Below are positions 7,442-47,454 of a DNA stretch of 64,000 bases, one piece after another. How positions within the stretch are numbered: the stretch's first letter is position 1; every line of letters starts with the position of its first letter. The notes below the pieces were generated by a model, which saw only the letters and a list, made by a program, of their open reading frames with translations, did no database searches and was not told the DNA's origin. The stretch is from Impatiens glandulifera (lineage: Eukaryota > Streptophyta > Magnoliopsida > Ericales > Balsaminaceae): the NCBI RefSeq assembly GCF_907164915.1, contig NC_061867.1, forward strand, positions 48,208,242 through 48,272,241, given 5' to 3'. Position numbers and translations under genes: made by a program.

Positions 7442-8200
7442 CACTGGTGAAAAAGGGGTCAAAACCGAGAGTTAAAACTCTCGGTTTTGACCCTATAACT
7501 TTCGGTGAAGACACCTTACCGAAGGTTTTAGTTACCCTCGCCATCCCTCGGTAGTGACACTCTCGGGACTTCCATTACAGAGAAAAACCGAGAGTTATAT
7601 GAAAACTTTCGGGTTTTTCTCTTTGTGGAAAAACCGAGGGTTTTACAAGACCTTTCGGTTTTTCTCATTTTGGAAAAATCGAGGGTTTTACAAAGACCTT
7701 TCGGTTTTCCTCGTTTATGGAAAAACCGAGGGTTTTATAAAGACCTTTCGGTTTTCCTCTTTTTACAAATAACTTTCGGTTTTTCTCTGTGTGGAAAAAC
7801 CGAGGGTTTTGCAAGAACTTTCGGTTTTACCCGAAGAGGAAAACCGAGAGTTATTTACAAAACTTTCGGTTTTCCTCTTCTGTTAAAACCGAAAGTTTTG
7901 TAAATAACTCTCAGTTTTCCTCTTCGGGTAAAACCGAGAGTTTTCCACTAACTCTCGGTTTTCTCCTTTTCAAGAAAACCGAAAGTTATATTAAAAACTC
8001 TCGGTTTTTACCCGAAGAGGAAAACCGAGAGTTATTTACAAAACTTTCGGTTTTCCTCTTTAGGATAAAAACCGAGGGTTTGCATATAACTCTCGGCTTT
8101 CTCTTTGGCTAAAAACCGAGAGTTTTCTAATATCTCTCGTTTTTTCCAAAAGAGGAAAAACCGAGAGATTTCAATATTACTTTCGGTTTTTTTCCCCCTA
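7442..8200. repeat. Left subterminal array of CCGAGAGTT-type inverted motifs
   Basis: About twenty alternating copies of ACCGAGAGTT, ACCGAGGGTT or ACCGAAAGTT and their reverse complements (AACTCTCGGT, AACTTTCGGT) are packed into about 750 bp. Neighbouring copies form short hairpins. This is the place and style of TNPA-binding subterminal motifs in En/Spm elements. The overlapping ORFs on both strands here are products of the repeat, not genes. Confidence 0.85.
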
Positions 8201-8416
8201 ATTTTAAAAATGTGCGGATTATTTTGCTCGCACAACCAAAACCTAACCAAAACCTGTTCAGCCAAACCAATATTACTGATAAAAGAATGCAGCATACATT
8301 AAACGTCACATTAATTGATCATGAACATTACAAAATTCGAAACCAAACAAATATTACGAACAATCTGTTATAAAGTCAACTACTATAATGAAAACATGTT
8401 CATAATCGAAACAACC

Positions 8417-9987
8417 TTAGCTTGTGGGGGGAGGAGGTGGTGTTGCCTCATATATAATTCGATTATTCTCCATTCTCGCGTTCATCTCTGACTTCTCCCT
8501 CTCCATTTTTCGGTTAATCTCTAATTCTCCTCTCCATTCTTTCCCCAATTTCTTTCTTTTCTGATTGCCATTCTTCCATTTTGCGCCTTCTTCTTCATCT
8601 CCTTCTTCCCGTTCCTCCAGCTTGAGCTTCAATTATTTGATTTCTATTCTAACCAATCGCTCATTGTTTCGCTGTGAACTGTTTCCACTACGACGATCCT
8701 CAACGAAAGTGTCGGGGACCGCGACGCCTGATCCCATTCCGAAACACTACCCCGTGTTTTTGTTGTCCTGAACACCCTCTCCAGTCAATTCAAAATCCGC
8801 TATTCCCGGTTCGTTACTAACAACCTCTTCCATCTCAGGCCTGCACAATTCAAATAAAATATCATTTCTATAATAAAACACTAGGCTTATTCAATTCACT
8901 TACCAATTTTCTCTTGCACGGTTCGTCCGGGACGGGTGTTGGGTTTTCTTGTGTCGGTTTTGGTGTACGGGTCCTCTTGAATACTTCAATTACAGTCGGT
9001 GGCCGTCCCATTTCAATCGCCTGTTGAAATAAATGATTTATATAATTAATAACAATCTACATATTAAGTTATTACAAATAATGTACTTACCAACTCGTCT
9101 TCAATTTGTGCAAACGGTCTACTTCCCGTTCGATGCGGGAATTTCAGATTCTTCCGATTCTTCATATTTGTAGAACTGTGTCTCTGTATTTGAAATAACA
9201 AATGAAGTTAGATTAATTATATAAACTTTTATTTGAATTATGAAACCGTACCTTAAACGTTTCTGTGAAGAAATGGTTGCGACACACAAACTCCCAATCA
9301 TCTCGATCGTAGTCCGGTGGAGGATTAGCCAGTACCGCCGCCTCGTCTCTTTTGTGGACGCGGATATAATTCTTGTTCAAATCCGACCGCCATCTATCCC
9401 ATATCTGATTGGCGTGTCCCAACCCGGTCTTTCGAAATAATCAATGTCGCCATTAGTCGCTTCGAACGGATCCTGAAAAAAATAACATCCAATGTTACAA
9501 ATAATTATTTAATGACGTAATGTATAATCAAGTATAAGTATTACCTTGATAGCAGTCCACAGTGAATCTAATTGGTCTGCACTTAAAGCCTTCCACTTGA
9601 GAAGACGTGTGTGAGACGGCTGCGGGTCCCGGATAATCGACCCCACATGTCTAGACCACCTTGTCCTTCCACGTCTGTACCGCCTGGCCTCCCATCCTTC
9701 TCTCTAAACGTTAGAGGGATCCTCGTACCCCCGCTAGCCTCCTTAGACAACGCAATATTCTTGTTCTTCCCCCGTCTTTTGTGGGCAGAAGATTCTTCAA
9801 AATTATCAAAATCTTAATTAAATATGTCAATCAATTGAAACACTAAACTAATTTGTAAACGAAATACCTGTCGATGATGGGTCGGAGTGGTCCCGTCCTC
9901 CTCCTCGTCTTCCTGCTCCTCGATAGGCTCCTCAAGACCCTCGTCTTCAGCCTCATCGCTAGGTAGGTTATCAGCGTATGTGCTCAT
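8417..9987 (-). pseudogene. CACTA Transposase_24 (TnpA-like) gene, probably disrupted
   Basis: A multi-exon gene reading leftwards. Exon 9987-9868 opens with an ATG and is very acidic, followed by a GT donor. The next exon (about 9800-9545) has a basic RGKNKNIALSKEA stretch. The exon near 9480-9250 contains ANPPPDYDRDDWEF, typical of plant Transposase_24 (PF03004). The exon near 9180-9091 contains FPHRTGSRPFAQIEDEL before a GTAAGT donor, a hallmark of the same family. The 3' part (8632-8417) is a lysine/glutamate-rich coiled-coil stretch ending in a proline run. A frame change is needed between the 9.6-kb and 9.5-kb segments, and the last exon fits only with another. By analogy with TNPA the protein would bind the subterminal motifs; that is family knowledge. 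Confidence 0.75.
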
Positions 9988-10320
9988 CTATAAACTCGTG
10001 GAGCTCATCATTCGTCTTCAGTCTCGTATGTTCGGAGGGAGGCGCAGGTAGCTATCGGGACCACAGGAAATCGGTGGTTGGTCTCTAGAAGACGATCCCT
10101 CGAAGCTTTAACGACTCGGATTGGCAAGTAGGTTTTTGGTAACTTTTATCCAATTTCTTGGGTGTCTTCCTCATACTCTTCCAAGTTGTTTTAGGACCTT
10201 CAGACATTCTTAATTCACAACCATTAATAAAAATGAGTGAATATTGAAATAAGTAGTAATAAAAATGAATATAAAGTTAAAAACATTATTAAATCTACCT
10301 AATTAATTAATCTGAACTAT

Positions 10321-10778
10321 ATGTTTGTAAAACCGCGGTTTATTTTGTCACAATCTTCCAACCGGGTCGGGCTGACATATCAGGGCGTAGAATACTTGTT
10401 TTGCTTGACTCGCCAATATATACGGGTCTTGACTTTGGGTTTTCAAAATTCGGTTACATTTACACTTACGAAGCCATATTTGTCCACTTTCACTCCTAGT
10501 TCCCCCGAGTGTGTATCAAACCACTTACACTTGAATAAAACAACTCGTTTGTGAGAATAATATTGTACTTCGATTATATCCGTCAAAACTCCATAGTATG
10601 ACATAGTTTCAGATCCGTTGTACCCCTCAACAACCACCCCACTATTTTGAGTTGTCAAACCTTCGTCGTGTTTTTCTGTACAGAATTTGAATCCGTTTAC
10701 TTTACACCAAACATACATAGACGAGTACATACTTGGACCTTCTCCTAAGATCTTGAGGTCTCTTGATATGTCGTTCAT
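10321..10778 (-). pseudogene. DUF4216 region of the CACTA transposase
   Basis: The open frame 10778-10443 contains YYGVLTDIIEVQYY and KCKWFDTHSG, the core of DUF4216 (PF13952), which follows TNP2/DUF4218 in plant CACTA transposases. The family's later motif (here ILASQAKQVFYA) appears just downstream in a different frame at about 10390-10410, so a small indel near 10443 breaks the frame. It is probably the 3' part of the same gene as the TNP2 region at 10993-13619, with an intron between. Confidence 0.78.
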
Positions 10779-10992
10779 TTCTGCTAAATGGGCGACCTAT
10801 ATATGAATCCGAAATGAAGTTGTTAATATGAATAAGAAGAGTTAGGATATATGGTTTGTAATTTACTCACTCGATGCTTGAAATATGCGGCAAACGTTTC
10901 TCCACTGGACTCGTTGTTATAATCTCTGCAAATAGATCGAATGCTAATTAGTAACACTCTTTAATTCTAATTAGTAACAGCAACATTGAATC

Positions 10993-13619
10993 TTACATGT
11001 AAAAATGTTCTGCTTCGGGACAATTTTTCAAAATGTAAGAATGAGCTATCACTCGATCGATATAATCCAAGTTGTATACTTTTCCGTTAGATAGGTCTTC
11101 CAATGATGCAAATATTGAAATGCCCGAGATTTCAGGATGTGCATTTTCTTGATCTTGTTCCTCCATATACCTGGCACATAAATTAATACTTTCGTTAACA
11201 AGATAGCTCTCGCTTATAGAGGCTTCTGGGTGGTTATTATTCCGCAAATATCTTTTCATTGTACCCATGTAATGTTCAAACGGATACATCCATCGATACT
11301 GAACAGGTCCTCCAAGCAAAGCCTCAAATGACAAGTGAACCGGGAGATGCATCATGATGTCGAAGATTGACGGCGGAAAAATCATTTCAAATTTGCAAAG
11401 TGTCAATGTAATATCCATGTACAATTGTTCCAGGTCCTCTTGAATCAACTCTTTGAAGCACAACAACCGAAAGAAACGAGACAAATTTACTAACGCATCA
11501 TACACATACTCTGGAAGCAATCCACGAGTTGCTAAAGGAATTAGATATTCCAACAAAATGTGACAATCATGACTCTTTAATCCCGAAAGCTTTTCTCTTC
11601 CAAATTTACACAACCCCCGATATTTGAGCAAAACCCATCAGGCAACTTAAGATCTTTCAAGAAGTTACAAAGACGTATTTTATTATCGGATGTCAAAGTG
11701 AAAGGCGCTTCTGGATAATGAACAACTCCTTCATCATTTATAGGATGTAACCATGATTTTATGCCTAAGAGTTCTAAGTCTTTACGCGCTTTAGGACCAT
11801 CCTTAGTCTTCTCTTTCACATTCATTATTGTTCCCAACACGCTATCACAGATATTTTTCTCAATATGCATCACATCCAAATTATGTCTCAATAATAGCGA
11901 TTTCCAATAAGGTAGACGGAAGAAAATGCTAAGTTTGTTCCAATTGTCTCCCCGCGTTTCATGATATATCTTGGTTCTCTTGCTCATATCCGCACTAAGA
12001 ATAATGTCTTCTAGGTCTCGTGTTTGCTCATAACTTTCTTGCCCCGTTAACAATCTAGGGGGATCCCTATAATCAGTTCGACCATCAAACGACTCTTTAT
12101 CCCTTCTGTATTTGTGCTTCGGTGGAAGGAAACGTCTGTGACCCAAGTAACATTGTTTGGAACCATGAACCAATCGAAGGGATACCGTGTCGTTGTTACA
12201 ACAAGGACAAGCAAATTTACCTTTCGTACTCCAGCCTGATAAATTCGCGTATGCGGGAAAGTCGTTAATGGTCCACAACAACGCCGCTCGCATGTTAAAG
12301 TATTGCGAGGTGTGTGCATCAAACGTTTTCACACCTGTTTGCCACAGTTCATGCAACTCTTCGATCAATGGCTGGAGAAATATGTCAATTGCATCTCTCG
12401 GACTCTTTGGACCCGGAATTAACATAGATAAGATGAAATTGCTAGAATCCATACAAGTCGTGGGTGACACATTATAAGGAACGAGAATAACCGGCCAAAC
12501 ACTGTATGATTTTTTCCCATTTGCAAATGGCTGAAACCCATCGCTTGATAAACCCAGTCTTACGTTTCGAGATTCTGAAGCAAAATCTGTATAATTTTCA
12601 TCAAACGTCTTCCATGTTAAGGAATCAGCGGCATGTCTCAACGTATCACTATCAACTCTTCCTTCTTTATGCCATCTCATCATTGGAGCCGTTTTTGAGG
12701 ACATGTATAGTCTTTGCAGTCTTGGTATTAAAGGGAAATATCTCAACACCTTTTTTGGAATGAATTTCCCGTTTGCTTCTCCCGAACTGTCCCACTTGTT
12801 TGGTCGACTTTCCATCTTGAAAGACCGCAAACTCTGCAAGATTCTTCATTTATGTCGTCCTTCCAAAATAGCATACAGTTGTTCTTACATGCGTCTATCT
12901 TGTCATATTTTAGCCCGATATCAGTAATGAATTTTTACTTTCGTAGTATGAGTTTGGCAATTGAGCGTCAATCGGTAATATGTAGTCTTTAAGCAGACGC
13001 AACAACATATCGAACGAAGAATTCGTCCATTGACATACATTTTTTATGTGAAGTAGTTTCAGTAGTGCGATGATTTCGTTATTCGAGCACCTTCATACAA
13101 TGGCCGTTTGCAATCATCAAGCAATTTATAAAATCTATGCGCATCTTCGACTGGTTCATCGTTATCCGAGACGTCATTAACGTTGGGGAACATATCGTTT
13201 ATAAATTCGTGCATATAACGTTCTTCGTTGACCTCTTCATTAACTGTATTATTCATCTCCGGTCTCGCATCGTTGAATTCCGGCACGGCATCCTCCGACT
13301 GATCATCGTCATCATCATCATCATCATCATCGAAGTCATCGGCATCTTCATCGACATCGTCATTCACCACTTGAGTAGTACGTCTTTTTTCTCCATGAAA
13401 ATACCAATACTGATAATGTACATTTATTCCATAAACAATGAGGTGAGTCTTCACTTCGTCTATTTCCATAAACGGCGTGTTCAAGCATTTCACGCAGGGA
13501 CATTTCACGGTTTGTCGGGATGTATTCCTAACAGCATACTTGAGGAATTTGTCAACGCCTTCCTCGTAATTTGGATGATCTCGACGTAAGGTCATCCAGC
13601 TTTTATCGGGTACTTCCAT
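10993..13619 (-). pseudogene. TNP2-type CACTA transposase, frameshifted
   Basis: Reading leftwards from ATG 13619 (after a TTATTAG acceptor), the first frame begins MEVPDKSWM and has a conserved C..C pair (CPCVKCLN), as in the transposase-associated domain (PF13963); an aspartate run follows. The frame then changes near 13090, 12925 and 12800, after which 12839-11577 gives a long TNP2 (Transposase_21, PF02992) core with LGLSSDGFQPF and LRHNLDVMHIEKN. Another frame change near 11590 leads into DUF4218 (PF13960; LKSHDCHILLEYLIP, MYPFEHYMGTMKRYLRNN). Such proteins cut and join CACTA ends in the nucleus. At least four small indels disrupt the frame, with hardly any nonsense substitutions between them. 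The gene is therefore broken as written; assembly indels are the alternative. Confidence 0.88.
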
Positions 13620-13679
13620 ATTTCTAATAAAATGGAACACAACCCGCATTATTATTTACTTATATTTCACTAAATTAAT

Positions 13680-14945
13680 TAGGCTTACATAATGCTAACA
13701 TAATTTATATCTAATCTATCATTATCCAACCAATAATCAATTTCATCTAACATTATCGAAGCCCAATTCAACCTAAACAAACAATATTTCATTCATATAC
13801 ATTTCAACAATATCTAACATTGTCCAAGCCAAATTTAACCTAAACAAACATTAATATGTCATTCATATACATTTCAAACCTAATCTAACATTATCCAAGC
13901 CAAATTCCACCTAAACAAACAATATTTCATCATAAACATTTCAAATCTAATCTAACCTAATTTAACCAATCTAGCACGGCAGTCTTCAATCTTGCCTAAT
14001 TCAAATAACCAATCATCATTAATCTAACCCATTTTTTAAACTAATCAAACCTAGTCAAACACTATTTCAATCATATATAATTCAAATAATTCAATTCATA
14101 CCTAAAATCCAATATAATCCGAAAAACATAAAAATCCTTAAAAACTGACCTTTTTCAGCAGTTGTGGCGGCGACGGTGGAGGAGGCAGCTGAAGGTGGAA
14201 TAACCTCGACGATCTTCAAGAGACGGACGGTCCTAATCCAAAATCAGACAAAATCAAACCATATTATCTAACTTAAATTTGACATAAATCCAAACAAAAT
14301 ATAATCTAACAAACCTAATCTAACAAATCAATATAAAAACCAAATCTAACCAAAATATTGAACATATAACCTAAATCTAACATTAATCAAACAATTTCAA
14401 ACCAAATCTAATAACCAAAATCAAATCTAATCCAAACAATTCAATTCTAACATAATCTCAATAACTATCAATCAAACCAAATAACCACACCTAAACCAAA
14501 CTCAATATAAACCAATTTTTAACATTAATCAAACCTAATAACCAAACCTAAATCAAAATCAATAACCATCAATCAAACCCATTAACCAAACCTAAATCAA
14601 ACTCAATATAAACCAATTTTTAACCAAACCAATTAACCAAACCAAAATCAAACATAAATCAAATCAAAATCAAACCTCAATCAAACCAAAATCAAACCAA
14701 TCTAAACTAAATCAAACAAAAATCAAACCATAATCCTAAATTAAACAGATTCTAACATAAATCAACTTAAATCCAACAATTCCAAACCAAATCTAACATA
14801 TATAACATCAATCTAATACTTCAGTAAATCAATCATTCAAACAGATTCAATTAGATTCAATAATAACATTAATAATTCCTAAATCTAACAAATCCTAAAA
14901 ACTAACCCTAAAATCTAACATATATAACACTAATATATATAAATA
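13680..14945 (-). other. Strongly G-depleted intron of the CACTA transposase gene
   Basis: On the plus strand this stretch is almost only A, C and T, built from degenerate AACCAAATCTAAC and AAATCAAACC words. G is nearly absent between about 14240 and 14930. A short GC-rich block (14156-14240) interrupts it and may be a leader exon. In the sense direction of the transposase gene (minus strand) it is T/G-rich and C-poor, and sits between a GC-rich leader and the first coding exon. I take it as an intron. Confidence 0.6.
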
Positions 14946-15250
14946 AACCTCAAATCCAATAACTGACCTTCAATCGTCGGCGGAGGCACGGCTGAGGCGC
15001 GGCTGAAAGCGGCGGAGGCGCGGCGACAGATCTTCAACAGGAGCCGCGGCAGATCTTCAACCGGAGAGGCGGAGAGACGTCTTCGCGGCTTCAACAGGGG
15101 CGGTGTCTTGGCGGCGTTGTCTTCTACGGGCGGCGTCGTCTTCTTCAACCGGAGGGAGTCGTCGATCGGATCTGTTGGCGGCGCTGGAGAAGAGGAGCGG
15201 CTGGAGAGGGAGAAAGCGGAGAAGAAACGCGGAAAAGAGAAAGAGAGGGT
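14946..15250 (-). other. GC-rich leader region of the CACTA transposase gene
   Basis: A sudden GC-rich block rich in CGGCGG and GAGAAG words (CT- and CCG-rich on the minus strand) lies next to the subterminal repeats. Composition and place match a 5' untranslated exon read leftwards, like the similar block at 18729-18840 before the small ORF. The 72-codon frame here has no recognisable domain and is not called as a gene. Confidence 0.45.
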
Positions 15251-15269
15251 TTTTTTTTAATTAAATAAA

Positions 15270-15560
15270 TGGTTACCGAGAGTTATAGCAAAACTCTCGG
15301 TTTTTGATTATAATAAAAACCGAGAGTTATATTAAAACTCTCGGTTTTTATTATAATCAAAAACCGAGAGTTTTCATATAACTCTCGGTTTTTTAATGTT
15401 CAAATTCCGAGAGTTTAAATATAACTCTCGGTTTTTAATGTTTAAATACATTTTCACAATTAAATTTAAATACACAAAAACGAGAGGCTTTAGTAAATCT
15501 TTCGTTTTTTATGCATATTTCCGAAAGTTATATATTTAACTTTCGGTTTTACAACATGAG
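15270..15560. repeat. Subterminal-type hairpins with the CCGAGAGTT motif
   Basis: Successive inverted pairs of the form ACCGAGAGTT ... AACTCTCGGT lie 5-15 bp apart, followed by more diverged members ending in CCGAAAGTT ... AACTTTCGG. They mirror the left subterminal array and start directly upstream of the transposase leader. Confidence 0.8.
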
Positions 15561-16322
15561 AACTTGTTAAATTAATTGGATTCTCACTTTCTAATAACGT
15601 TGAACAACATTAATTTAATACATTTGATATCCTTAAAACATTTCCCAATCCATATGATCAAACATTACACAAATACATAGGATAATCAAACATAAACATT
15701 CATATACACTTCTATATATAATCAAACACATTCATAAACATTTTAACATTAAAGACAATTTAAATTTTTCAAATAAAAACACACACTTGATTATATTACT
15801 TAGGAGTCTAGATTGGAAGGTAGAAAACCAAAGAATTTAACAATTTGTCAAGTGCTAATTCCGAAAGTTATATAATTAACTTTCGGAAATATCCATCAAA
15901 ACCGAAGGGTTTATATAAAACCCTCGTTCTTGAGAAATGTAAAATCCGAAAGTTTATAGAAAACTTTCGGTTTTGATGGTTATTTCCGAAAGTTAATTAT
16001 ATAACTTTCGGAATTAGCACTTGACAAATTGTTAAATTCTTTGGTTTTTCACCTTCTAATGACCTATAACAATATTAATTTACCACATTTGATGTCTTTA
16101 AAATATTGCACAATTCATATGATCAAACATTACCTACATTCATAAGATAATCAAACATGAACATTCATATAGACTTCTCTATAATAATCAAACACAATCA
16201 TAAATATTTGAACATGAAACACAATATTAATTTTTAAAATAGAACACGAAAATGATTATATTAGTTAGAAGTTAAGATTAGTGGGTTAAAAACAAAATAA
16301 TTGAACAAACTAGGTAGTGTTA
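15549..16322. repeat. Two-copy direct repeat around a long palindrome
   Basis: An AT-rich unit of about 310 bp occurs at 15549-15858 and again, diverged, at 16016-16322 (shared words include CATATGATCAAACATTAC and AGATTAGTG/AGATTGG endings). Between and overlapping them is a long palindrome: the arm at 15829-15904 is the reverse complement of about 15965-16046, with AACAATTTGTCAAGTGCTAA in one arm and its complement in the other. A smaller GAAAGTTT hairpin sits in the centre. Confidence 0.75.
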
Positions 16323-16424
16323 AAACCGAAAGTTATAAAATTAACTTTCGGTTTTGATGTGTATTTGCGAAGGTTTTAAATATATCTCTCGGTCTTGACC
16401 TTGATCAGAAGTTTTTTGGGAATT

Positions 16425-18105
16425 GTTAAAATCGAAGGTTTATTTGAAAACCTTCGGTTTTTACACTTCCCCATACTTAGAAAATTTTTCGATTTTTTTA
16501 ATGTAAGGACAAAACCGAAGGTTTATTTTAAAACCTTCGGTTTTTACCCTTTACCATACTTAGAAAAAAATCTAATTTTTTTAATGTAAGGACAAAACCG
16601 AAGGTTTATTTGAAAACCTTCGGTTTTTACCCTTCCCCATACTTAGAAAATTTTCCGATTTTTTTAATGTATGGTCAAAACCGAAGGTTTATTTGAAAAC
16701 CTTCGGTTTTTACCCTTCCCCATACTTAGAAAATTTTCCGATTTTTTTAATGTATGGTCAAAACCGAAGGTTTATTTGAAAACCTTCGGTTTTTTACCCT
16801 TCCCCATACTTAGAAAAAAATCTGATTTTTTTAATGTATGGTCAAAACCGAAGGTTTATTTGAAAACCTTCGGTTTTTACCCTTCCCCATACTTAGAAAA
16901 TTTTCCGATTTTTTTAATGTATGGTCAAAACCGAAGGTTTATTTGAAAACCTTCGGTTTTTACCCTTCCCCATACTTAGAAAAAAATCTGATTTTTTTAA
17001 TGTATGGTCAAAACCGAAGGTTTATTTGAAAACCTTCGGTTTTTACCCTTCCCCATACTTAGAAAATTTTCCGATTTTTTTAATGTAAGGTCAAAACCGA
17101 AGGTTTATTTGAAAACCTTCGGTTTTTACCCTTCCCCATACTAAGAAAAAAATCTGATTTTTTTCATGTATGGTCAAAACCGAAGGTTTATTTGAAAACC
17201 TTCGGTTTTTACCCTTCCCCATACTTAGAAAAAAATCTGATTTTTTTAATGTAAGGTCAAAACCGAAGGTTTATTTGAAAACCTTCGGTTTTTACCCTTC
17301 CCCATACTAAGAAAAAAATCTGATTTTTTTCATGTATGGTCAAAACCGAAGGTTTATTTGAAAACCTTCGGTTTTTACTCTTCCCCATACTTAGAAAAAA
17401 ATCTGATTTTTTTAATGTAAGGTCAAAACCGAAGGTTTATTTGAAAACCTTCGGTTTTTACCCTTCCCCATACTAAGAAAAAAATCTGATTTTTTTCATG
17501 TATGGTCAAAACCGAAGGTTTATTTGAAAACCTTCGGTTTTTACCCTTCCCCATACTAAGAAAAAAATCTGATTTTTTTCATGTATGGTCAAAACCGAAG
17601 GTTTATTTGAAAACCTTCGGTTTTTACCCTTCCCCATACTTAGAAAAAAATCTGATTTTTTTAATGTAAGGTCAAAACCGAAGGTTTATTTGAAAACCTT
17701 CGGTTTTTACCCTTCCCCATACTATGAAAAAAATCTGATTTTTTTCATGTATTGTCAAAACCGAAGGTTTATTTGAAAACCTTCGGTTTTTACCCTTCCC
17801 CATACTTAGAAAAAAATCTGATTTTTTAATGTAAGGTCAAAACCGAAGGTTTATTTGAAAACCTTCGGTTTTTACCCTTCCCCATACTAAGAAAAAAATC
17901 TGATTTTTTTCATGTATGGTCAAAACCGAAGGTTTATTTGAAAACCTTCGGTTTTTACCCTTCCCCATATTTAGAAAAAAATCTGATTTTTTTAATGTAA
18001 GGTCAAAACCGAAGGTTTATTTGAAAACCTTCGGTTTTTACCTCAATATTTTTAAAAAAAATTGGTCAAAACCGAAGGTTTTCAAATAAACCCTCGGTTT
18101 TGGCG
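16425..18105. repeat. Array of about 20 hairpin units of 83 bp
   Basis: Each unit holds a perfect 14-bp stem, AAAACCGAAGGTTT, a 6-nt loop ATTTGA, and the complement AAACCTTCGGTTTT, then TACCCTTCCCCATACTTAG and a second near-palindrome AAAAAAATC-T-GATTTTTTT or a variant. Hairpins start near 16427, 16510, 16593, 16676, 16760, 16845, 16928, 17011, 17094, 17177, 17260, 17342, 17425, 17507, 17590, 17674, 17757, 17839, 17921 and 18004, with a degenerate last one at 18066. From about 17090 units of two types (CTTAG...AATGTAAGG and CTAAG...CATGTATGG) mostly alternate, giving a higher-order period of about 165 bp. ORFs across the array are by-products of the repeat. Confidence 0.92.
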
Positions 18106-18279
18106 ATGCGGTTTTTTTTTAAAAAAAAGGTGAAAAGTCAACAAAACATAATTATTTAAAACATATTAAACCAAACCAAACAAACATAATAACAATAATG
18201 CATAAATATTAAAACATAACGCATAAAATTAAATATTAATTGTCATAAACCTATAATAAATCCATAATAAATCTACAAA

Positions 18280-18573
18280 TTAATTATTAGATGGGGTGGA
18301 AGGAGGGGGTGGTTGATTCAGTCGACTCCTCAACAAGACAAGTTCCTGTTCGAGATTCTCTAATCTCTGAGACATTTCGGCCCGGTCCGCTTTGATTTCA
18401 CTGAGCAAACGACCTCTTTCGGCATCCCTTAATCGGATTTGTTCCATTTCCAGCGTCATCTTTCTGACCTCTTCCTCACGTGCCGCAATTTCTGATTGTG
18501 TTATCAGATTCTGGTAACACGGATGCAGTTTCTCCGGTGTTTGCCGAAGTCTCTTCCATGTCGAATCACCCAT
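18280..18573 (-). CDS. Small coiled-coil protein, unrecognised, inside the CACTA element
   Basis: A 97-codon frame starts at ATG 18573, just after a TTTAG acceptor, and ends in a proline-rich tail (LNQPPPPSTPSNN). The middle (about residues 28-85) is rich in E, R, K, L and M with heptad-like spacing, predicting a coiled coil. Upstream on the minus strand are a GC-rich leader exon with a GTAATT donor at 18728-18727 and a TATAAATAC box at 18841-18833, so this looks like a complete small transcription unit. It has no motif I can name. The charged coil plus proline tail resembles the 3' end of the Transposase_24 gene at 8417-8632, so it may be a truncated TnpA-like gene; a captured host fragment is also possible. 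Its 3' side faces the hairpin array, which begins about 175 bp downstream. Confidence 0.5.
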   Translation of the reverse strand: MGDSTWKRLRQTPEKLHPCYQNLITQSEIAAREEEVRKMTLEMEQIRLRDAERGRLLSEIKADRAEMSQRLENLEQELVLLRSRLNQPPPPSTPSNN

Positions 18574-18832
18574 ATCCTAAATGCATTTCAGATATATGTA
18601 TATATATATTAATCAAACAAAATAACGTAAACTAACATAAATCTAGATCTATAATATATATATATATAAACTTAAGAAATCTAAATCTTACAATAAACAA
18701 AACAAAAAAACCAAATCAAACAAATTACCTGAAGAGAGGAGAAGAACCCGCGGCTTGGAGGAGGCAGGCGACGGCGGCGGAAGAGAGAGAAAGGAGAAAT
18801 GAGTGGAATGAAAAAGAGAAGGGTTAGGGTTT

Positions 18833-18841
18833 GTATTTATA
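18833..18841 (-). promoter_or_regulatory. TATA box of the small CACTA transcription unit
   Basis: TATAAATAC on the minus strand lies directly inside the right subterminal repeats. It is followed by a CT-rich leader (CTTTCTCTCTCTTCCGCCGC) and a splice donor. This is a good match to plant TATA context. Confidence 0.6.
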
Positions 18842-18849
18842 GAGGTTGA

Positions 18850-19317
18850 TGCGGAAGGTTTTCATAAAACTTTCGGTTTTGATATTATTCAAAACCGAGG
18901 GTTTATTAAAGACCCTTCGGAAAAAACCATAACCAAATTTATAATTTTTTTTAATGAGCAAAACCGAAGGTTCTTTGTAAAACTTTCGGAAATGAAATTT
19001 TCAAAAAAGGCAAAACCGAAGGTTCTTTGAATAACCTTCGCAATTAAAAAACCAGGGATTTCAAAACCGAAGGTTTTTACAAAAACCTTCGCAATTAACC
19101 CACATCCAACACTTAGAATTTTTTTGAGTTTTTTGGGAAGGTAAAAAACGAAAGTTCTTTGTAGAACTTTCGGTAATAATTAATAAACCCGAAGATTTTA
19201 CACCCCACTCGGAATCTATTTTTAATCCCGAAGGATTTGTTCCTCTCGGGAGTATTTAGGAGAGGTTTACAAAACCTTCGGGAAAAACCGTCGGTAAAGA
19301 TCCTTTTTTTACCAGTG
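18850..19317. repeat. Right subterminal array of the CACTA element
   Basis: Diverged inverted motifs (CCGAGGGTT, CCGAAGGTT, AACTTTCGG, AACCTTCG) run up to the terminal CAGTG at 19317. They mirror the left array at 7442-8200, though the motifs are less regular. Confidence 0.8.
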
Positions 19318-34207: not shown

Positions 34208-36268
34208 TAGGGGTGAGCAAACGGGTAAACTCAACCCGTATTACCCAACTCATATTCAACCCAAATTAAATTTACTCAACCCATAATTCAACCCATATTA
34301 TTTATTAATATGGGTTGGGTAACCCAAATTATTTTATTTTTATTTTTTCATTTAACATGTATGTGACTCATTTAACACATTTTTATTCGTTTAATACGTT
34401 TTCCATATTTTTGACATGTTTAACACGTTTTCCACATTTTTGACATTTTTAATACGTTTTTGCCACGTTTAACACGTTTTTACTATGTTTAACACATTTT
34501 TGACAAGTTGAACACGTTTTTATGTTTTTGGCATGTTTAACACATTTTCATGTTTTTGGCATGTTTAACACATTTTTAACACGTTTAACACGTTTTTGAC
34601 ACGTTTTCACGATTATAACACATTCTGACACGTTTTTCACATTTTTGGCACGTTTAACATGTTTTGACACGTTTAATATGTTTTTCACATTTTTGACACG
34701 TTTAACACGTTTTCATACGTTTTTCACGTTTTTGGTGCGTTTAACACGTTTTGACATATTTAACACATTTTGACACGTTTAACACAATTTGACATGTTTT
34801 TGACACGTTTAATATGTTTTTAACACGTTTAACATGTTTTTGGCACGTTTAACACATTTTGACACGCTGAACACGGTTTTCATGTTTTGATATGTTTGAC
34901 ACGTTTTTCACAATTATGACACATTACACACATTTTGACACGTTTTTCACGTTTTTGGCACGTTTTGCACATTTTTAACACGTTTAAAACATTTTCACAC
35001 GTTTTCACGTTTTTGGCACGTTAACACATTTAACACGTTTTGACACGTTTTGATACGTTTTCCATGTTTTCCACATTTTGACACATTTTGACACGTTTAA
35101 CACATTTAACATGTTTTTTTATATTTTTTACACATTTAACATGTTTTTTATATTTTTTTACATGTTTAATATATTTTTCATACGTTTGACGTGCCAAAAC
35201 GTGAAAAACGTGTTAAACGTGCCAAAAACGTGTTAAACATGCCAAAAACATGTTAAACGTGACAAAAACATGTTAAAACTTATCAAAATGTGTCAACGTA
35301 CAAAAACATGTTAAACATATCAAAATATGTTAAATGTGCACAAACGTGTCAAACGTGTTAAAATGTCAAAAATGTGTTAAATGTGCCAAAAACGTGAAAA
35401 CGTGCCAAAAACGTGAAAACGTGTTAAACATACCAAAACGTGTTAAATGTACTAAAAATGTGTTAAATGAGCCAAAACGTGTTAAACGTGTTCAACATGT
35501 CAAAAACGTGCTAAACGTGCCAAAAATGTGAAAAACGTGTCAAAAATGTCAAAAATGTGTTAAACATGCCAAAACGTGAAAAACATGTTAAACGTGTGAA
35601 AACCGTGTTAAATATATCAAAAACGTGTTAAAATGTCAAAAACGTGTTAAACGTGCCAAAAACGTGAAAACCGTGGTAAACTTATCAAAAAAGTGTTAAC
35701 GTGTTAAATATGTTAAATACGTGTTTAACGTGTCAAAAACATAAAAAATATATTAAACTTGTCAAAAACACGTTAAACGTATTAAACATGTCAAAAACGT
35801 GTTAAACGTGATAAAAACGTGACAAAAACGTGAAAAATGTGTTATTAGTGTGAAAACGCGTTATACATGTCAAAAACGTGTTAAACGTGCCAAAACGTGT
35901 TAAACATGTCAAAACGTGAAAATGTGTTAAACATGTGAAAACGTGCTATAAGTGATAAAACGTGTTAAAAATATTAAAAACGTATTAAATGTGTAAAGAA
36001 CGTGTTAAACGTGTGAAAAACGTGTTAAACATGTCAAAAATATGTTCGACTTAAAGTTGGAAGATGATTAGTTTATATTGGATTAATAATAGAGAATTAA
36101 ATTAAATTTATATAATTTGGGTAACCCTAACCCAACCCAACCCAAATTAAACTCAACCCATACTCAACCCAACCCATATTCAACCCAATCCATACTCAAC
36201 CCAACTCATATTAACCAACCCATATTAATATTTTGGGTTTGGGTAAACCCAAATTATGCTCACCCCTA
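34208..36268. mobile_element. hAT-like non-autonomous foldback element, 2.06 kb
   Basis: The termini TAGGGGTGAGCA and TGCTCACCCCTA are perfect 12-bp inverted repeats, flanked by a perfect 8-bp target duplication GTTACATG (34200-34207 and 36269-36276). An 8-bp duplication with short inverted ends containing GGGGTGAGCA fits the hAT superfamily. Inside each end are AACCCAACCCA-type repeats in the same orientation. The interior is a large strand-switching repeat and there is no transposase, so movement would depend on enzymes from elsewhere. Confidence 0.88.
34330..36055. repeat. Strand-switching array of CACGTTTAACACGTTTTT-type repeats
   Basis: From about 34330 to 35190 the plus strand is a degenerate array of CACGTTTAACACGTTTTTGG-like words. 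From about 35190 to 36055 it is the reverse complement (AAACGTGTTAAACGTGCCAA). The switch lies near 35185-35205. The two halves are of similar length (about 860 bp) and together form an imperfect palindrome of about 1.7 kb. ORFs here are repeat by-products. Confidence 0.88.
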
Positions 36269-36569
36269 GTTACATGCCAATTCGAGTTTGGTACCATTGA
36301 AGCTGACTCTCAAACCTTCAATTTGGTAGGTCATAAAGACAATATGGATCAACGTAATTTGAATTCTCTTTAGTGGAATTATAGGCTATCACTAGTTGGC
36401 TTATCTGATTTAGCAAAAAAATTTCCCGAGCTTGCTTCTATTTCTATTATATATATTTGAGAAAAATTGGAATTCTACGTTGATTGTCCTAATTTGTAAG
36501 ACAACCGAAACTATCGATGTGAAGAATTTCTGACTCATCAGTTTAGTTACATCATTTTTTAAGATTATC

Positions 36570-42318: not shown

Positions 42319-42867
42319 TGTTGGAGAAATCGAATAATAGCACCTGTTTAGCAATTCAGAAATAAACAAGCTACAACAAGGCCTAACAATTCTTTTTCCC
42401 TTTTGTGTAATCAAATAGGCAGCCAAAACAATTGAGCATCAAACAATCAAAAAACAGAGAGCAGGACACCAAGATTTTACGTGGAAAACCCAAATTAGGT
42501 AAAAACCACGGGACACTTCGGCCACTTAAATCATCCACTATATCAAATGGGTATACAATGTAGTTCAATACAAGCCTAGAGGTAATCTAACAAAAGTTAT
42601 CAATTGACCTCATCCTAACTTGTCATTCACATACATTATCATCATCATTAAAGATAGCTAACCAAATGGAGAAGAGATAAAGGAAATCAGAAGAAAAACC
42701 TGCTGCTTCAATGGAGGAATTGCTGCTTCAATGGAGGAAGAACTGCTGGAAGAGAGAGAGAGAAAAACCAATCTAAAACTGCTGTGTTTTTTTTTTCCTT
42801 AATTAAATATGCCCTAATGGGCTTTATTAATTTGTTAGGCCCAGCTGCCAAATGAGCTGATCCAACA
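42319..42867 (-). repeat. 3' LTR of Copia B2
   Basis: 549 bp, TGTTGG...CCAACA, with a (GA)n stretch near 42756-42766. The internal neighbour is the polypurine tract. Confidence 0.96.
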
Positions 42868-42880
42868 AATCTCCCCCGTC
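42868..42880 (-). promoter_or_regulatory. Polypurine tract of Copia B2
   Basis: The minus strand reads GACGGGGGAGATT directly before the 3' LTR. It overlaps the gag-pol stop codon (42879-42881), so coding and priming signals are packed together. Confidence 0.88.
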
Positions 42881-45800
42881 AGCACAACTTCGCGGGCTCC
42901 AATAAACCCGCTCTCTCCCGACAATCTTCAAACTTGTCCTTAAGCAAGGATTTCGTAAACATATCGGCACCATTCTCACTTGTATGAATCTTCTCCAAGT
43001 TCAGCTCTTTTGCCTCAAGCACATCACGTATCCAATGAAATCTCACGTCGATGTGTTTGGATCTCGAATGAAAAGCTGAATTCTTTGAGAGATGAATGGC
43101 ACTTTGACTGTCGCAAAATAAAGTAAACTTCTCTTGCTTTTGGCCCAACTCTTGTAGGAACTTCTTCATCCATAACACCTCTTTACATGCCTCAGTAGCT
43201 GCAATATACTCAGCTTCTATAGTAGACAAAGCAACACACTTTTGTAACCTTGACTGCCACGAAAGAGCACCGCCTGCAAAGGTAACCAAAAAACCTGATA
43301 CAGATTTTCTTGAATCAACATCACCCGCCATATCAGAATCTGTAAAGCCTTCCAAAATAGGAGTATCACTTCCGAAACATAAACGTACTTTCGAAGAGCC
43401 TCGAAGATATCTGAGAATCCACTTAACAGCTAACCAATGTTCTTCTCCAGGGTTGGAGAGATACCGACTAACAACACCAACTGCGTGTGCTATGTCCGGT
43501 CTTGTACATACCATGACATACATAAGACTACCAACTGCAGAGGCATAAGGTACATTCTTCATTTCATCTTTCTCTTTCTCACTTGTAGGACATTGTTTAG
43601 AACTCAACTTGAAATGACCTGCAAGTGGAACTGAAACCGGTTTTGCATTTTTCATTGCAAACCTCTCAAGTACCTTCTCAATGTACTTCTCCTGTGATAG
43701 CCAAAGTGTTCTGTTCTTTCTGTCTCTTGTGATTTCCATGCCTAGGATCTGTTTCACTGAACCCAAATCCTTCATCGCAAAAAACTTGTTCAACTCTCTT
43801 TTGAGCTTCTCAATTTTCGCAATATCTTGCCCAACAATCAGCATATCATCAACATAGAGCAGAAGAATAACATAATCATCAACACCGTATTTTTTGATGA
43901 AAACACAATGATCAGAAGTAGTCTTACTGTACCCATTTACTTCCATGAAGGAGTCAAATTTCCTGTACCATTGTCTAGGCGCTTGTTTGAGCCCATACAA
44001 GCTTTTCCTCAACCTGCAGACAAGATCTTCTTTACCTTTAACTTTGAAACCCTCAGGTTGTTCCATATAGATCTCTTCCTCCAAGTCACCATGGAGAAAT
44101 GCAGTCTTCACATCCAGTTGTTCAATTTCCAAATCTTGACTAGCAGCCAATGCTAACACAACTCTGATGGATGACCTCTTCACAACTGGTGAGAAGATCT
44201 CTTCAAAATCAATCCCCTTTTTCTGTCCAAAGCCCTTCACAACCAGTCTTGCTTTGTATCGAGGTTGTGAGCTATTCTCTTGGTGCTTCAACTTGAATAC
44301 CCACTTGTTCTTCAAAGTCTTCTTTCCTTTTGGAAGTTTCACCAAGTCATAAGTTTCGTTCTCTTGCAAGGAATTTATCTCTTCTTGCATTGCCACCGAC
44401 CACTTGTTCTTGTTTTCATGAGACAATGCTTCTTGATAGGTTTCTGGTTCTCCCCCGTCAGTCAACATCACATACTCATTGGGAGGATACCTACTAGAAG
44501 GTTGTCTCTGCCTACTAGATTTTCTAATATGCTGATCATCAGGTGGCTCTAAAGAACTATCATCATCTTGTTCAGCTTCCTCTGTTGGCTCAGCATCAAC
44601 TAAAGAAGTCTCATCAACCTCAACTTGGGTATTCTCCACATCATTGGGCTGTGATTGTGGTGTACGAATCCTACCATTGTCAGGCAATTCATTCTCTGTA
44701 GACTTCGGCTTTTCCTTTTTCTCAAAGTCTTCAATGGTCTGATCTTCAAATAATACCACGTCTCTACTTCTAATGAGTTTCTTGTTAACCGGATCCCAAC
44801 ATCGGTACCCAAATTCTCCGTGGCCATACCCAATAAAGATACACTGTCTCGTCTTACTATCAAGCTTAGCTCTCTCATCTCGAGGAACATGAACAAACAC
44901 TTTACAACCAAAAACTCTCAAGTGATCATAAGAGACGTCTTTACCTCTCCAAACTCTTTCTGGAACGTCGCCATCTAAAGGAGTTGAGGGTGAAAGGTTT
45001 ATCAGATCAACCGCTGTCTTCATTGCTTCTCCCCAAAAGGATTTTGGCAACTTAGCATGAGACAACATACACAAAATTCTCTCATTGATAGACCTGTTCA
45101 TCCTCTCTGCAACTCCATTCTGTTGAGGTGTTTTTGGCACAGTCTTCATAAGCTTGATCCCATGACTTTTACAGTATTCCACAAATGGTCCTCTGTATTC
45201 GCCACCATTGTCCGAACGAACACATTTCAACTTCTTACCAGTTTCTCTCTCCACTTCAGCATGAAACAACTTGAAGTAATCCAATGCTTGATCCTTAGTC
45301 TTCAAGCAATAGGCCCACACCTTCCTTGAGCAATCATCGATAAAAGTGATGTAATAATGAGCACCACCTAAAGTCAAGGAATCCATAGAACATATGTCTG
45401 TGTGAACCATATCTAGGATATTGGGCTTCCTAGATGGAGAGAAACTTTTGAAGGAAACCCTATGTTGCTTACCAACTAAGCAATCTGTGCATGTCTTCAA
45501 ATATGTGGACTTTAAGCCCTGGAGATCGATTGTCTTGGAGAGAACTCGCATGCCATTCTGACTTAAGTGACCAAGTCTCTTATGCCAAAGCTGTGATGAA
45601 CAATCATTAACTGCATTTGCTTCTCCACCATAAGACTTAGTCTCTGTCACATAAAGAGAACCGACCTTCTTTCCTTTAGCTATCACCAAAGACCCCTTAG
45701 TGAGTTTCCATTTTCCTTCACCAAAGTAACTATGATAGCCCTCATCATCAAGAATACCAGTAGAGATCAAATTCATCCGAATATCAGGAACATGTCGAAC

Positions 45801-46856
45801 ATTCTTCAAAAGTAGTTTGCACGAAGTGTTAGTATCCAAACAGACATCTCCTTTTCCAACAATCTTACACGTAACATGGTTTCCCAACGTCACTGAACCA
45901 AACTGTCCACTAGTGTAAGAAGCAAATATATCACAACGATTGGTGACATGATAAGAAGCACCTGAGTCTACCACCCATTGTGTATCTTGAGAAACAAGGT
46001 TGATACTATCATTGTCGTAAACAATATCGATGTCGTTACCACCCACATCTGCAACCTTACTACTTCCATCTTGCTTATTCTCCTTTTGTTCCCGCTTCAA
46101 AGATCTGCACTGATACTTCTTGTGTCCTGGCTTGCCACAATGATAACATGTAATCTCTTTTCTCGAGCTGGATGTTCCCCGTGACCTGTCTGAACTGCCA
46201 CTGCGATTCTTTGGAGTTTTACTTTTACTTCTACCCCTTTTCTCAGTCATGAACACCTGACTTGGAGTCGAGAAGCCCTGTTCTTTTCTTCTAGCCTCTT
46301 CATTCAGCACGCTCTCTTTCATCATTTTCAAAGTGAGCTTACCTTGTGGAACAGAATTGGTAATTGAAACCACAAGTGTTTCCCAACTATCAGGCAGAGA
46401 ATTAATCAAACACATAGCATGAAGCTCATCATCAAATTTCATTCCTATCGCAGCCAACTCATTTAGAATCCCCTGAAAAGCATTTAGATGCTCAGACATA
46501 GAAGACCCATCTTGATATTTCAACGAGCAAAGCTTCCTAAATAGAAATGCTCTGTTTTGAGTGTTGTTCTTCTCATACAGCTCACTCAAAATAGTCCACA
46601 CCTTATAAGCATTAACTTCAGTAGCCACATGCTGATACACACTGTTGTCAACCCATTGCCTGATTTTACCAACTGCCTTTCTGTTCAGCTTCTTTCAATC
46701 TCCATCTGTCATAGCCTCTGGTTTGCCTTTATCACCCAAAATAGTGTCTTCATAATCATAATTACACAATAAGTCCTCCATCCGTGACTTCCAGATTGTG
46801 TAATTGGTAGCTGTGAGTTTGTTCATCGTTCCATTACTGCTCAACGATTCTTCCAT
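42879..46856 (-). CDS. Copia B2 gag-pol polyprotein, one premature stop
   Basis: The frame from ATG 46856 to the stop at 42879 spans 1,326 codons and is open except for a TGA at 46695-46697 (codon 54), where relatives carry Trp. Domains in order, numbered from ATG 46856: gag (UBN2-type, to about 200); CCHC knuckle CYHCGKPGHKKYQC near 237-250; protease WVVDSGASYHV near 295-305; GAG-pre-integrase LWHKRLGHLS; integrase core with HTDICSMDS, RSDNGGEYRG and TPQQNGVAERMNR; reverse transcriptase with LDVKTAFLHGDLEEEIYM and YVDDMLIVG; RNase H with STIEAEYIAA and the SKHIDVRFHWIRD tail. These make the particle, process the polyprotein, copy the RNA and integrate the DNA. The remaining frame from Met 46640 (1,253 residues) lacks the gag N-terminus. 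A reading error at one base would change the verdict from inactivated to intact. Confidence 0.93.
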
Positions 46857-46891
46857 TTGAATTATACAAGAATCACCACCAAACGAACTCA

Positions 46892-46903
46892 GCTCTGATA
46901 CCA
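46892..46903 (-). promoter_or_regulatory. Primer-binding site of Copia B2 (initiator tRNA-Met)
   Basis: TGGTATCAGAGC on the minus strand, two bases inside the 5' LTR. This matches the standard plant Copia primer site. Confidence 0.92.
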
Positions 46904-46905
46904 CT

Positions 46906-47454
46906 TGTTGGAGAAATCGAATAATAGCACCTGTTTAGCAATTCAGAAATAAACAAGCTACAACAAGGCCTAACAATTCTTTTTCCCTTTTGTGTAATCA
47001 AATAAGCAGCCAAAACAATTGAGCATCAAACAATCAAAAAACAGAGAGCAGGACACCAAGATTTTACGTGGAAAACCCAAATTAGGTAAAAACCACGGGA
47101 CACTTCGGCCACTTAAATCATCCACTATATCAAATGGGTATACAATGTAGTTCAATACAAGCCTAGAGGTAATCTAACAAAAGTTATCAATTGACCTCAT
47201 CCTAACTTGTCATTCACATACATTATCATCATCATTAAAGATGGCTAACCAAATGGAGAAGAGATAAAGGAAATCAGAAGAAAAACCTGCTGCTTCAATG
47301 GAGGAATTGCTGCTTCAATGGAGGAAGAACTGCTGGAAGAGAGAGAGAGAAAAACCAATCTAAAACTGCTGTGTTTTTTTTTTCCTTAATTAAATATGCC
47401 CTAATGGGCTTTATTAATTTGTTAGGCCCAGCTGCCAAATGAGCTGACCCAACA
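46906..47454 (-). repeat. 5' LTR of Copia B2
   Basis: 549 bp. It differs from the 3' LTR at three sites: AATAAGCAGCC versus AATAGGCAGCC, AAGATGGCTA versus AAGATAGCTA, and GCTGACCC versus GCTGATCC. Confidence 0.96.

Follow-up and report, generated by a model that had tools for sequence, protein, structure and literature searches.

In the genome of Impatiens glandulifera, a homogenised array of DNA hairpins occupies the same place in the sampled copies of a high-copy family of CACTA transposons. The array was found in a window of 64,000 nucleotides (the whole stretch of DNA that was analysed), where it lies inside an element of about 11.9 kb. Judged from its sequence, we lean towards reading the array as an amplified, internal block of the element's own subterminal (TNPA-type) binding motif, which would make it a putative cis-acting platform. 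The features of the element are listed below, with positions in the window and the evidence on which each was placed.

7442..19317, minus strand: CACTA element, 11,876 bp, with ends CACTGGTGAAAAAGG / CACTGGTAAAAAAAGG inverted
7460..8192, no strand: left subterminal block, inverted CCGARRGTT motif pairs with a period of about 45 bp (motif count)
8417..10208, minus strand: TNPA-like gene with several exons, limits deduced from the frames (partial Transposase_24 match)
10443..13655, minus strand: TNP2 (TNPD-type) transposase gene (PF02992, PF13963, PF13960, PF13952)
14960..15270, minus strand: GC-rich presumed promoter or 5' untranslated region of TNP2 (inspection; TRF CGGCGGAGGCG)
15275..16392, no strand: inner hairpin block, including the near-perfect palindrome 15812-15919 / 15953-16060 (motif count, folding)
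16428..18101, no strand: array, each unit a 34-bp hairpin and an A/T-rich spacer, with a distal hairpin at 18068-18101 (TRF, inspection)
18280..18576, minus strand: coiled-coil ORF of 97-98 aa, TNPA-like at its start (frame comparison)
18834..18841, minus strand: TATA-like box (TATAAATA) preceding the small gene (sequence inspection)
18850..19317, no strand: right subterminal block, CCGARRGTT motif and terminus (motif count)

The hairpin array consists of 20 tandem units of 82-84 bp each and one distal hairpin. The first-pass annotation, which had chosen the window on account of the regularity of the array, described about 20 hairpins in homogenised tandem units of some 83 bp, about 1.2 kb inside the element end, with almost invariant stems and variable spacers. 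This description was borne out. TRF gave a period of 83, with 19.5 copies and 94% matches over positions 16428-18042, the 20 in-register hairpins follow each other at spacings of 82-84 bp from position 16428 onwards, and the distance is as claimed when measured from the right end. In the 17 units whose length is exactly 83 bp, variation affects 1 of the 28 stem columns, 1 of the 6 loop columns and 16 of the 49 spacer columns (stem versus spacer, Fisher p 0.003). The 21st hairpin (18068-18101) stands 63 bp further out and carries the inverted loop TCAAAT, the reverse complement of the usual ATTTGA. Each hairpin has a 14-bp stem (AAAACCGAAGGTTT / AAACCTTCGGTTTT) around a 6-nt loop. The stem had been called perfect, which holds for 19 of the 21 hairpins, the first and the last having a single change each; the loop is ATTTGA in 19 of them, ATTTTA in one and inverted in one. 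A second A/T near-palindrome (CCATAC...GATTTTTTT...GTATGG) had also been reported and is indeed present in many units, but it is imperfect and variable (three units were folded). Units in the right half of the array largely alternate between two spacer types, TTAG..AATGTAAGG and TAAG..CATGTATGG, which suggests that the latest growth of the array proceeded partly by dimers. Neither this alternation nor the inverted last hairpin had been noted in the first-pass annotation.

The host element had been assigned to the CACTA superfamily, and both its ends and its transposase gene confirm this. It begins with CACTGGTG.. at 7442 and finishes with ..CCAGTG at 19317, CACTGGT being present in inverted orientation at both termini, in agreement with the CACTR ends of such elements. 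The flanks CCA/TCA form an imperfect 3-bp target site duplication, in which 2 of the 3 bases match, and exact 3-bp duplications are present in four relatives with both ends (L012 GTT, L013 GTA, L022 CTA and L050 CAC). As the genes of the element read leftward, its right end is the 5' side. The TNP2 frame is split in the window, where it matches PF02992 with E 1.8e-91, and many other TNP2 copies have an open frame of about 885 aa. When the TNPA-like exons were scanned apart as eight pieces, one of them gave a partial match to PF03004 (Transposase_24) with E 3.3e-05, below the curated cut-off, and a second piece matched the same family with E 0.13. No TNP2 match was found in the plasmid collection. 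A nested second CACTA end was considered as the source of the right part of the element and rejected: with exact ends sought, CCAGTG is absent inside the element and CACTGG occurs only at 10903, within TNP2.

Two other elements were noted in the window. The first (34208-36269) is a second transposon-like element with ends TAGGGGTGAGCA..TGCTCACCCCTA, which we take to be hAT-like; it is filled with TTTGACACGTTTAACACG-type repeats, about 800 bp of them on one side and the reverse complement of these on the other, again as long inverted motif arrays. The other (42701-47334) is a Copia-like retroelement, its family assigned by inspection, whose repeated flanks enclose a single open frame of 1271 aa.

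The motif CCGARRGTT links the array to the rest of its host. It occurs in the window 46 times in forward and 44 times in reverse orientation, with every copy inside the element, against a mean of 0.5 and a maximum of 2 in 30 runs of a Markov control. The forward/reverse counts are 20/21 in the array, 13/10 at the left end and 4/4 at the right end, and subterminal repeats are thus present in both orientations at both ends of the element. In the left block, arms are matched in 2 of 8 pairs. The 34-bp hairpin itself is made up of AACCGAAGGTT and its inverted copy, and this sequence is a variant of the CCGARRGTT that both subterminal regions contain. Since the motif sits in the left end, the inner block, the array and the right end, the array is one of four such blocks, a point absent from the first-pass annotation; the claim made there that it has its motif in common with the element's own subterminal repeats proved correct. 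One neighbour of the array is the small coiled-coil gene with its TNPA-like start; the other is the inner block, after which comes the presumed, GC-rich start of TNP2.

The first-pass annotation had also suggested looking for the unit in other CACTA copies, and it is indeed found there, so that the refuting condition named in that annotation, no further CACTA copy with the array, clearly fails. The exact 34-bp hairpin has 5,455 copies in the 654-Mb genome, with none for the reversed control, which excludes a chance occurrence, and TNP2 has at least 99 copies that are 93-100% identical, the window's own included (99 of 3,816 candidates scored). With thousands of hairpins and at least 99 TNP2 copies, the array is a property of a large family, and the genome-wide copies together with the common position in relatives rule out an accidental tandem expansion private to this element. 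Nineteen array-bearing loci were collected, 17 by the exact hairpin (first 11 Mb of C1) and two by TNP2. Segments of the element flank the array on both sides in 18 of the 19 loci (in L011 on the inner side only), the right terminus is present in 17 and the small ORF in 18. The arrays, including that of the window, have 5-28 units. In each, the longest run of hairpins was counted, with up to 3 stem changes per hairpin and no spacing above 170 bp, a rule that excludes degenerate hairpins and, where an array is broken (L009, for example), its earlier units. In 14 of the 20 arrays some spacings are short or odd, most of them belonging to a shortened unit at the outer edge. Elsewhere on C1 (G000:C1:84182477-84187249 and 65864573-65869000), 4-5 kb of exact flipped-loop units with recurring spacings are likely to be very long arrays.

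A sample based on termini was drawn from the same first 11 Mb of C1. Exact hairpins were seen by eye inside 9 of the 11 listed right ends, and all nine belong to the 17 hairpin-chosen loci. One of the remaining two, L049 (G000:C1:8825942-8826584), is a right-end remnant of 213 bp, with another copy's left end some 0.4 kb away; the other, L048, has a deletion of the array and the small gene and keeps at least the start of the TNP2 region. Among 18 further listed right ends (C1, 11.7-32.7 Mb), an exact unit was seen by eye in 11 and in none of the other 7, the lack of a unit being weak evidence here since the patterns used demand an exact spacer. At one of these seven, L051, other DNA without a hairpin occupies the place of the array, and this locus was dropped as a terminus-chosen array sample. 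Pairing of exact ends used 100 listed right ends of the 245 in the genome and 85 of 100 listed left ends of 207, left ends beyond the reach of the right-end list being omitted; among the places listed it yielded 23 elements of 2.2-14 kb, 21 of which measure at least 8.6 kb. The shortest, L050 (2.16 kb), has both ends, its duplication and one unit left. A genome search that tolerated up to 2 mismatches found its junction once, and this single case thus gives no sign of movement after loss of the array.

Stems and spacers have changed to very different extents. Between the arrays of the window, L046 and L047, which are those not picked by the hairpin search, the p-distance is 0.0014 (0.14%) for stems and 0.132 (13%) for spacers. 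Between all arrays the values are 0.027 and 0.171 (4,000 sampled pairs, 199 units), and within arrays 2.3% and 7.7%. The last two pairs of values were taken over 199 of 236 units, those with spacers of 44-52 nt, and are biased toward conserved stems, because 17 of the 20 arrays were chosen by their hairpins and degenerate hairpins were excluded. In L046 all 14 stems are unchanged at a spacer p-distance of 0.080, and the older arrays L012, L014, L015 and L018 have decayed in both parts (stem 0.056, spacer 0.155).

The 236 units contain 92 changed stem pairs, none of them with compensated (two-sided) changes; as about 0.6 would be expected by chance, this is the lack of an excess rather than a deficit. 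On the plus strand the mismatches are 39 G-T, 28 A-C and 25 of other types, and C-to-T or G-to-A changes at the 4 CG positions (of 28) account for 35 of the 92. The stem changes look like the decay of a DNA motif that would have been methylated. The smaller change in stems than in spacers and the absence of compensation among the 92 pairs fit a DNA motif rather than a selected RNA pairing, and the idea that a constraint on RNA folding keeps the stems of the array identical found no support. Elsewhere in the element a pairing constraint would also fit, since motif pairs are matched in 9 of 9 cases in the inner block, with two different arm sequences, and in 35 of 52 cases outside the arrays against 17 expected (in related loci that are not independent).

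The loops behave differently from both. They read ATTTGA in 145 of the 236 units and TCAAAT in 64; 26 are one step from either form and 1 is of another kind. Genome-wide, exact units with the same adjoining spacer number 1,866 with ATTTGA versus 491 with TCAAAT, and 0 for the controls. Flipped loops are found in 61 of the 216 internal units, and both forms occur among the internal units of 9 of the 20 arrays. Accumulated point changes are excluded as their origin, as ATTTGA and TCAAAT do not agree at any of the 6 positions and 26 of the 27 other loops are a single step from a main form. Inversion of whole units or spacers is likewise excluded as the main route, since only 1 of 198 spacers is reversed, plus 1 ambiguous case; the sole spacer reversed in place belongs to the L046 unit at 1895 (oriented coordinates). 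The inverted arms around the 49-nt spacers measure 14 bp, and up to 18 bp in L046, and yet these spacers hardly ever flip. That the 14-bp/6-nt repeat flips often and the 49-nt spacers hardly at all points to an event of replication at short hairpins, not to repeat recombination. Opposite-loop units with almost identical flanking spacers are rare (one pair, in L019, with at most 4 edits over both), which suggests that very recent flips are in the minority; single events are blurred by conversion and age. In plastid genomes, small inversions of hairpin loops are well known (PMC6824564), and hairpins are described as being both created and repaired by template switching, with loop inversions, which are reported to be very rare in ribosomal RNA genes (PMC8794818). 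In both papers, as here, a short hairpin keeps its position while its loop is inverted; the Impatiens case differs from those described there (PMC6824564, PMC8794818) in that it concerns nuclear DNA and hundreds of parallel copies of one hairpin.

The small ORF on the outer side of the array has 98 codons (97 aa from the ATG). Its frame is free of internal stops in 138 of the best 150 copies (150 of 2,808 candidates scored). Among the loci collected, L014, L015 and L019 have an in-frame stop. Its dN/dS is 0.15-0.26 in 8 of 11 copy pairs; the remaining pairs gave 0.49, 0.60 and 0.85, the value of 0.85 resting on few changes. The small gene starts like the TNPA-like gene, with 13 of 25 positions identical (none of 2,000 shuffles did as well); the resemblance of its tail, which is proline-rich and coiled-coil, to the end of that gene is weak (equalled by 28 of 2,000 shuffles). 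A profile search found no Transposase_24 match in the small protein, and no relatives of the 98-aa ORF were present among the proteins searched. We read the gene as a putative mini-TNPA without the Transposase_24 part. Transcripts starting from its TATA-like box would run toward the array.

Two functions had been proposed for the array in the first-pass annotation, a source of small RNAs and a multivalent TNPA-binding platform, and on our analysis the latter is the better-supported candidate of the two. For the former, transcripts from the promoter of the small gene would read through the array, and the resulting strings of hairpins would feed silencing or self-control of the element. The TATA-like box and the conserved ORF would aim transcripts in this direction, and the units do fold well as RNA, with z values of -4.4 to -6.6 in four single-unit folds and -11.7 for four units together. 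The near-perfect palindrome at 15812-16060, with arms of about 108 nt at 94%, folds at z -24.7, and a 250-bp imperfect palindrome with 79-87% self-complementarity lies at the same distance from the array in the window and in L017, L020, L021, L023 and L047 (79-83% in these five); the excess of matched arms outside the array would be in line with such a role as well. The array, however, has stems of 14 bp, which are short for Dicer-like enzymes, two-sided changes do not exceed chance, the wobble types (39 versus 28) show no clear strand bias, and the loop, though unpaired, is conserved almost to the degree of the stem when flips are disregarded (changes in 27 of 236 loops). We consider it unlikely that the array serves as a source of hairpin RNA, and the earlier proposal gains little from these data. 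The palindrome would be a better candidate for a source of double-stranded RNA than the array, and a small-RNA role is possible above all there.

It is less doubtful, and still clearly a minority view, that the array is a functionless selfish minisatellite, in which slippage and unequal exchange expand palindromic units, homogenisation keeps them alike and the place is due to descent only. The variation in unit number, the dimer patterns, the odd spacings in 14 of 20 arrays, the decay of the older arrays and the right ends without an array are all compatible with such a history, and homogenisation could keep stems alike without any function. Identical stems beside differing spacers and mixed loop orientations, as in L046, are nevertheless not expected from plain homogenisation of whole units, and the presence of both flanks in 18 of the 19 array-bearing loci also speaks against it. 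Repair by template switching alone would need no selection either, the event that flips a loop also copying one arm onto the other. Loop inversion is common in these arrays, and such switching is known to make and mend hairpins with inverted loops (PMC8794818). Neutral copying from arm to arm should, however, put some changes on both arms, which is the case for none of the 92 changed pairs, and we regard this explanation as very improbable.

If the array is an amplified block of the binding motif, as we favour, the TNPA-type protein of the element would bind the paired motifs cooperatively in duplex DNA. Binding may then lead to assembly of the transposition complex, to control of the TNP2 promoter by activation or by protection from methylation, or to both, and the small coiled-coil protein may modulate the action of the TNPA-type protein at the array. 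Array length would drift by unequal exchange, and single hairpin loops would flip in place, most likely through template switching at the short hairpin during replication. This model is drawn by analogy with the presumed action of TNPA at the ends of maize En/Spm. There, TNPA takes part in promoter and methylation control; the maize motif is, however, not the same as that of the Impatiens element, and we know of no internal array between two genes in En/Spm. More speculatively, the region from the mini-TNPA gene, which would be kept mostly by purifying selection, to the inner block might form an internal control region with 5-28 nearly identical paired sites, in which array length would act as a switch between TNPA and mini-TNPA and the loops would keep a record of inversion, about one fifth of the exact units being inverted. 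We hold this extended version only tentatively.

The first-pass annotation had called the array unusual. This was overstated, since long-unit arrays have been published for Tpn1 (PMC5105172) and Jozin (PMC8978399) and stem-loops for Tgmt* (PMC2613891). Tpn1 of Ipomoea nil is described as a CACTA family with tandem repeats of 122 bp and 104 bp in its subterminal regions, and resembles the Impatiens family in its long-unit arrays (PMC5105172). An array at a fixed place in family members, in the manner of Tpn1, is what was found here: 18 of the 19 array-bearing loci have both flanks, and in the first 11 Mb of C1 exact hairpins lie inside 9 of the 11 right ends listed. Compared with Tpn1 as described, the Impatiens unit differs in that it pairs two inverted copies of the element's own motif perfectly, and the array in that it lies 1.2 kb inside the element beyond a small gene and has loops that flip. 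In soybean Tgmt*, subterminal motifs make up inverted pairs from which 14 stem-loops could arise, a likeness to the present hairpins, and the element's DNA-binding protein is expected to recognise such motifs; those described are short border blocks of 159 and 732 bp, and the account of the element describes no fixed-length, homogenised internal array (PMC2613891). Jozin, a CACTA element of Chenopodium quinoa, likewise has a tandem array inside the element in several copies, made of 32.5 monomers of a 171-bp satellite, but this is presented as a satellite addition near the 3' end and, in the description given, not as hairpins or as a motif of the element (PMC8978399). In maize En/Spm, TNPA binds the subterminal repeats, and the element shares with that of Impatiens a repeated motif at both ends and an element-encoded DNA-binding protein (PMC2613891, PMC5105172). 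The array thus combines published features of CACTA elements, namely tandem repeats and subterminal stem-loops. In the literature searched, which covered few subscription papers, no homogenised hairpin array in a CACTA element and no loop flipping in one was described, and within these bounds three features are seemingly new, namely the homogenised unit with its hairpin, the position of the array between two genes of the element, and loops that flip.

These findings turn an odd-looking hairpin array into a standing part of a large transposon family, with the pattern of change of a DNA motif and not of a preserved RNA fold. As closely related elements with differing unit numbers are present in one genome, it can be asked how the number of accessory sites affects the activity of an element. 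Moreover, more than 2,000 exact hairpins, flipped and unflipped in the same context, could be used to measure the rate and the length limit of loop inversion in nuclear DNA.
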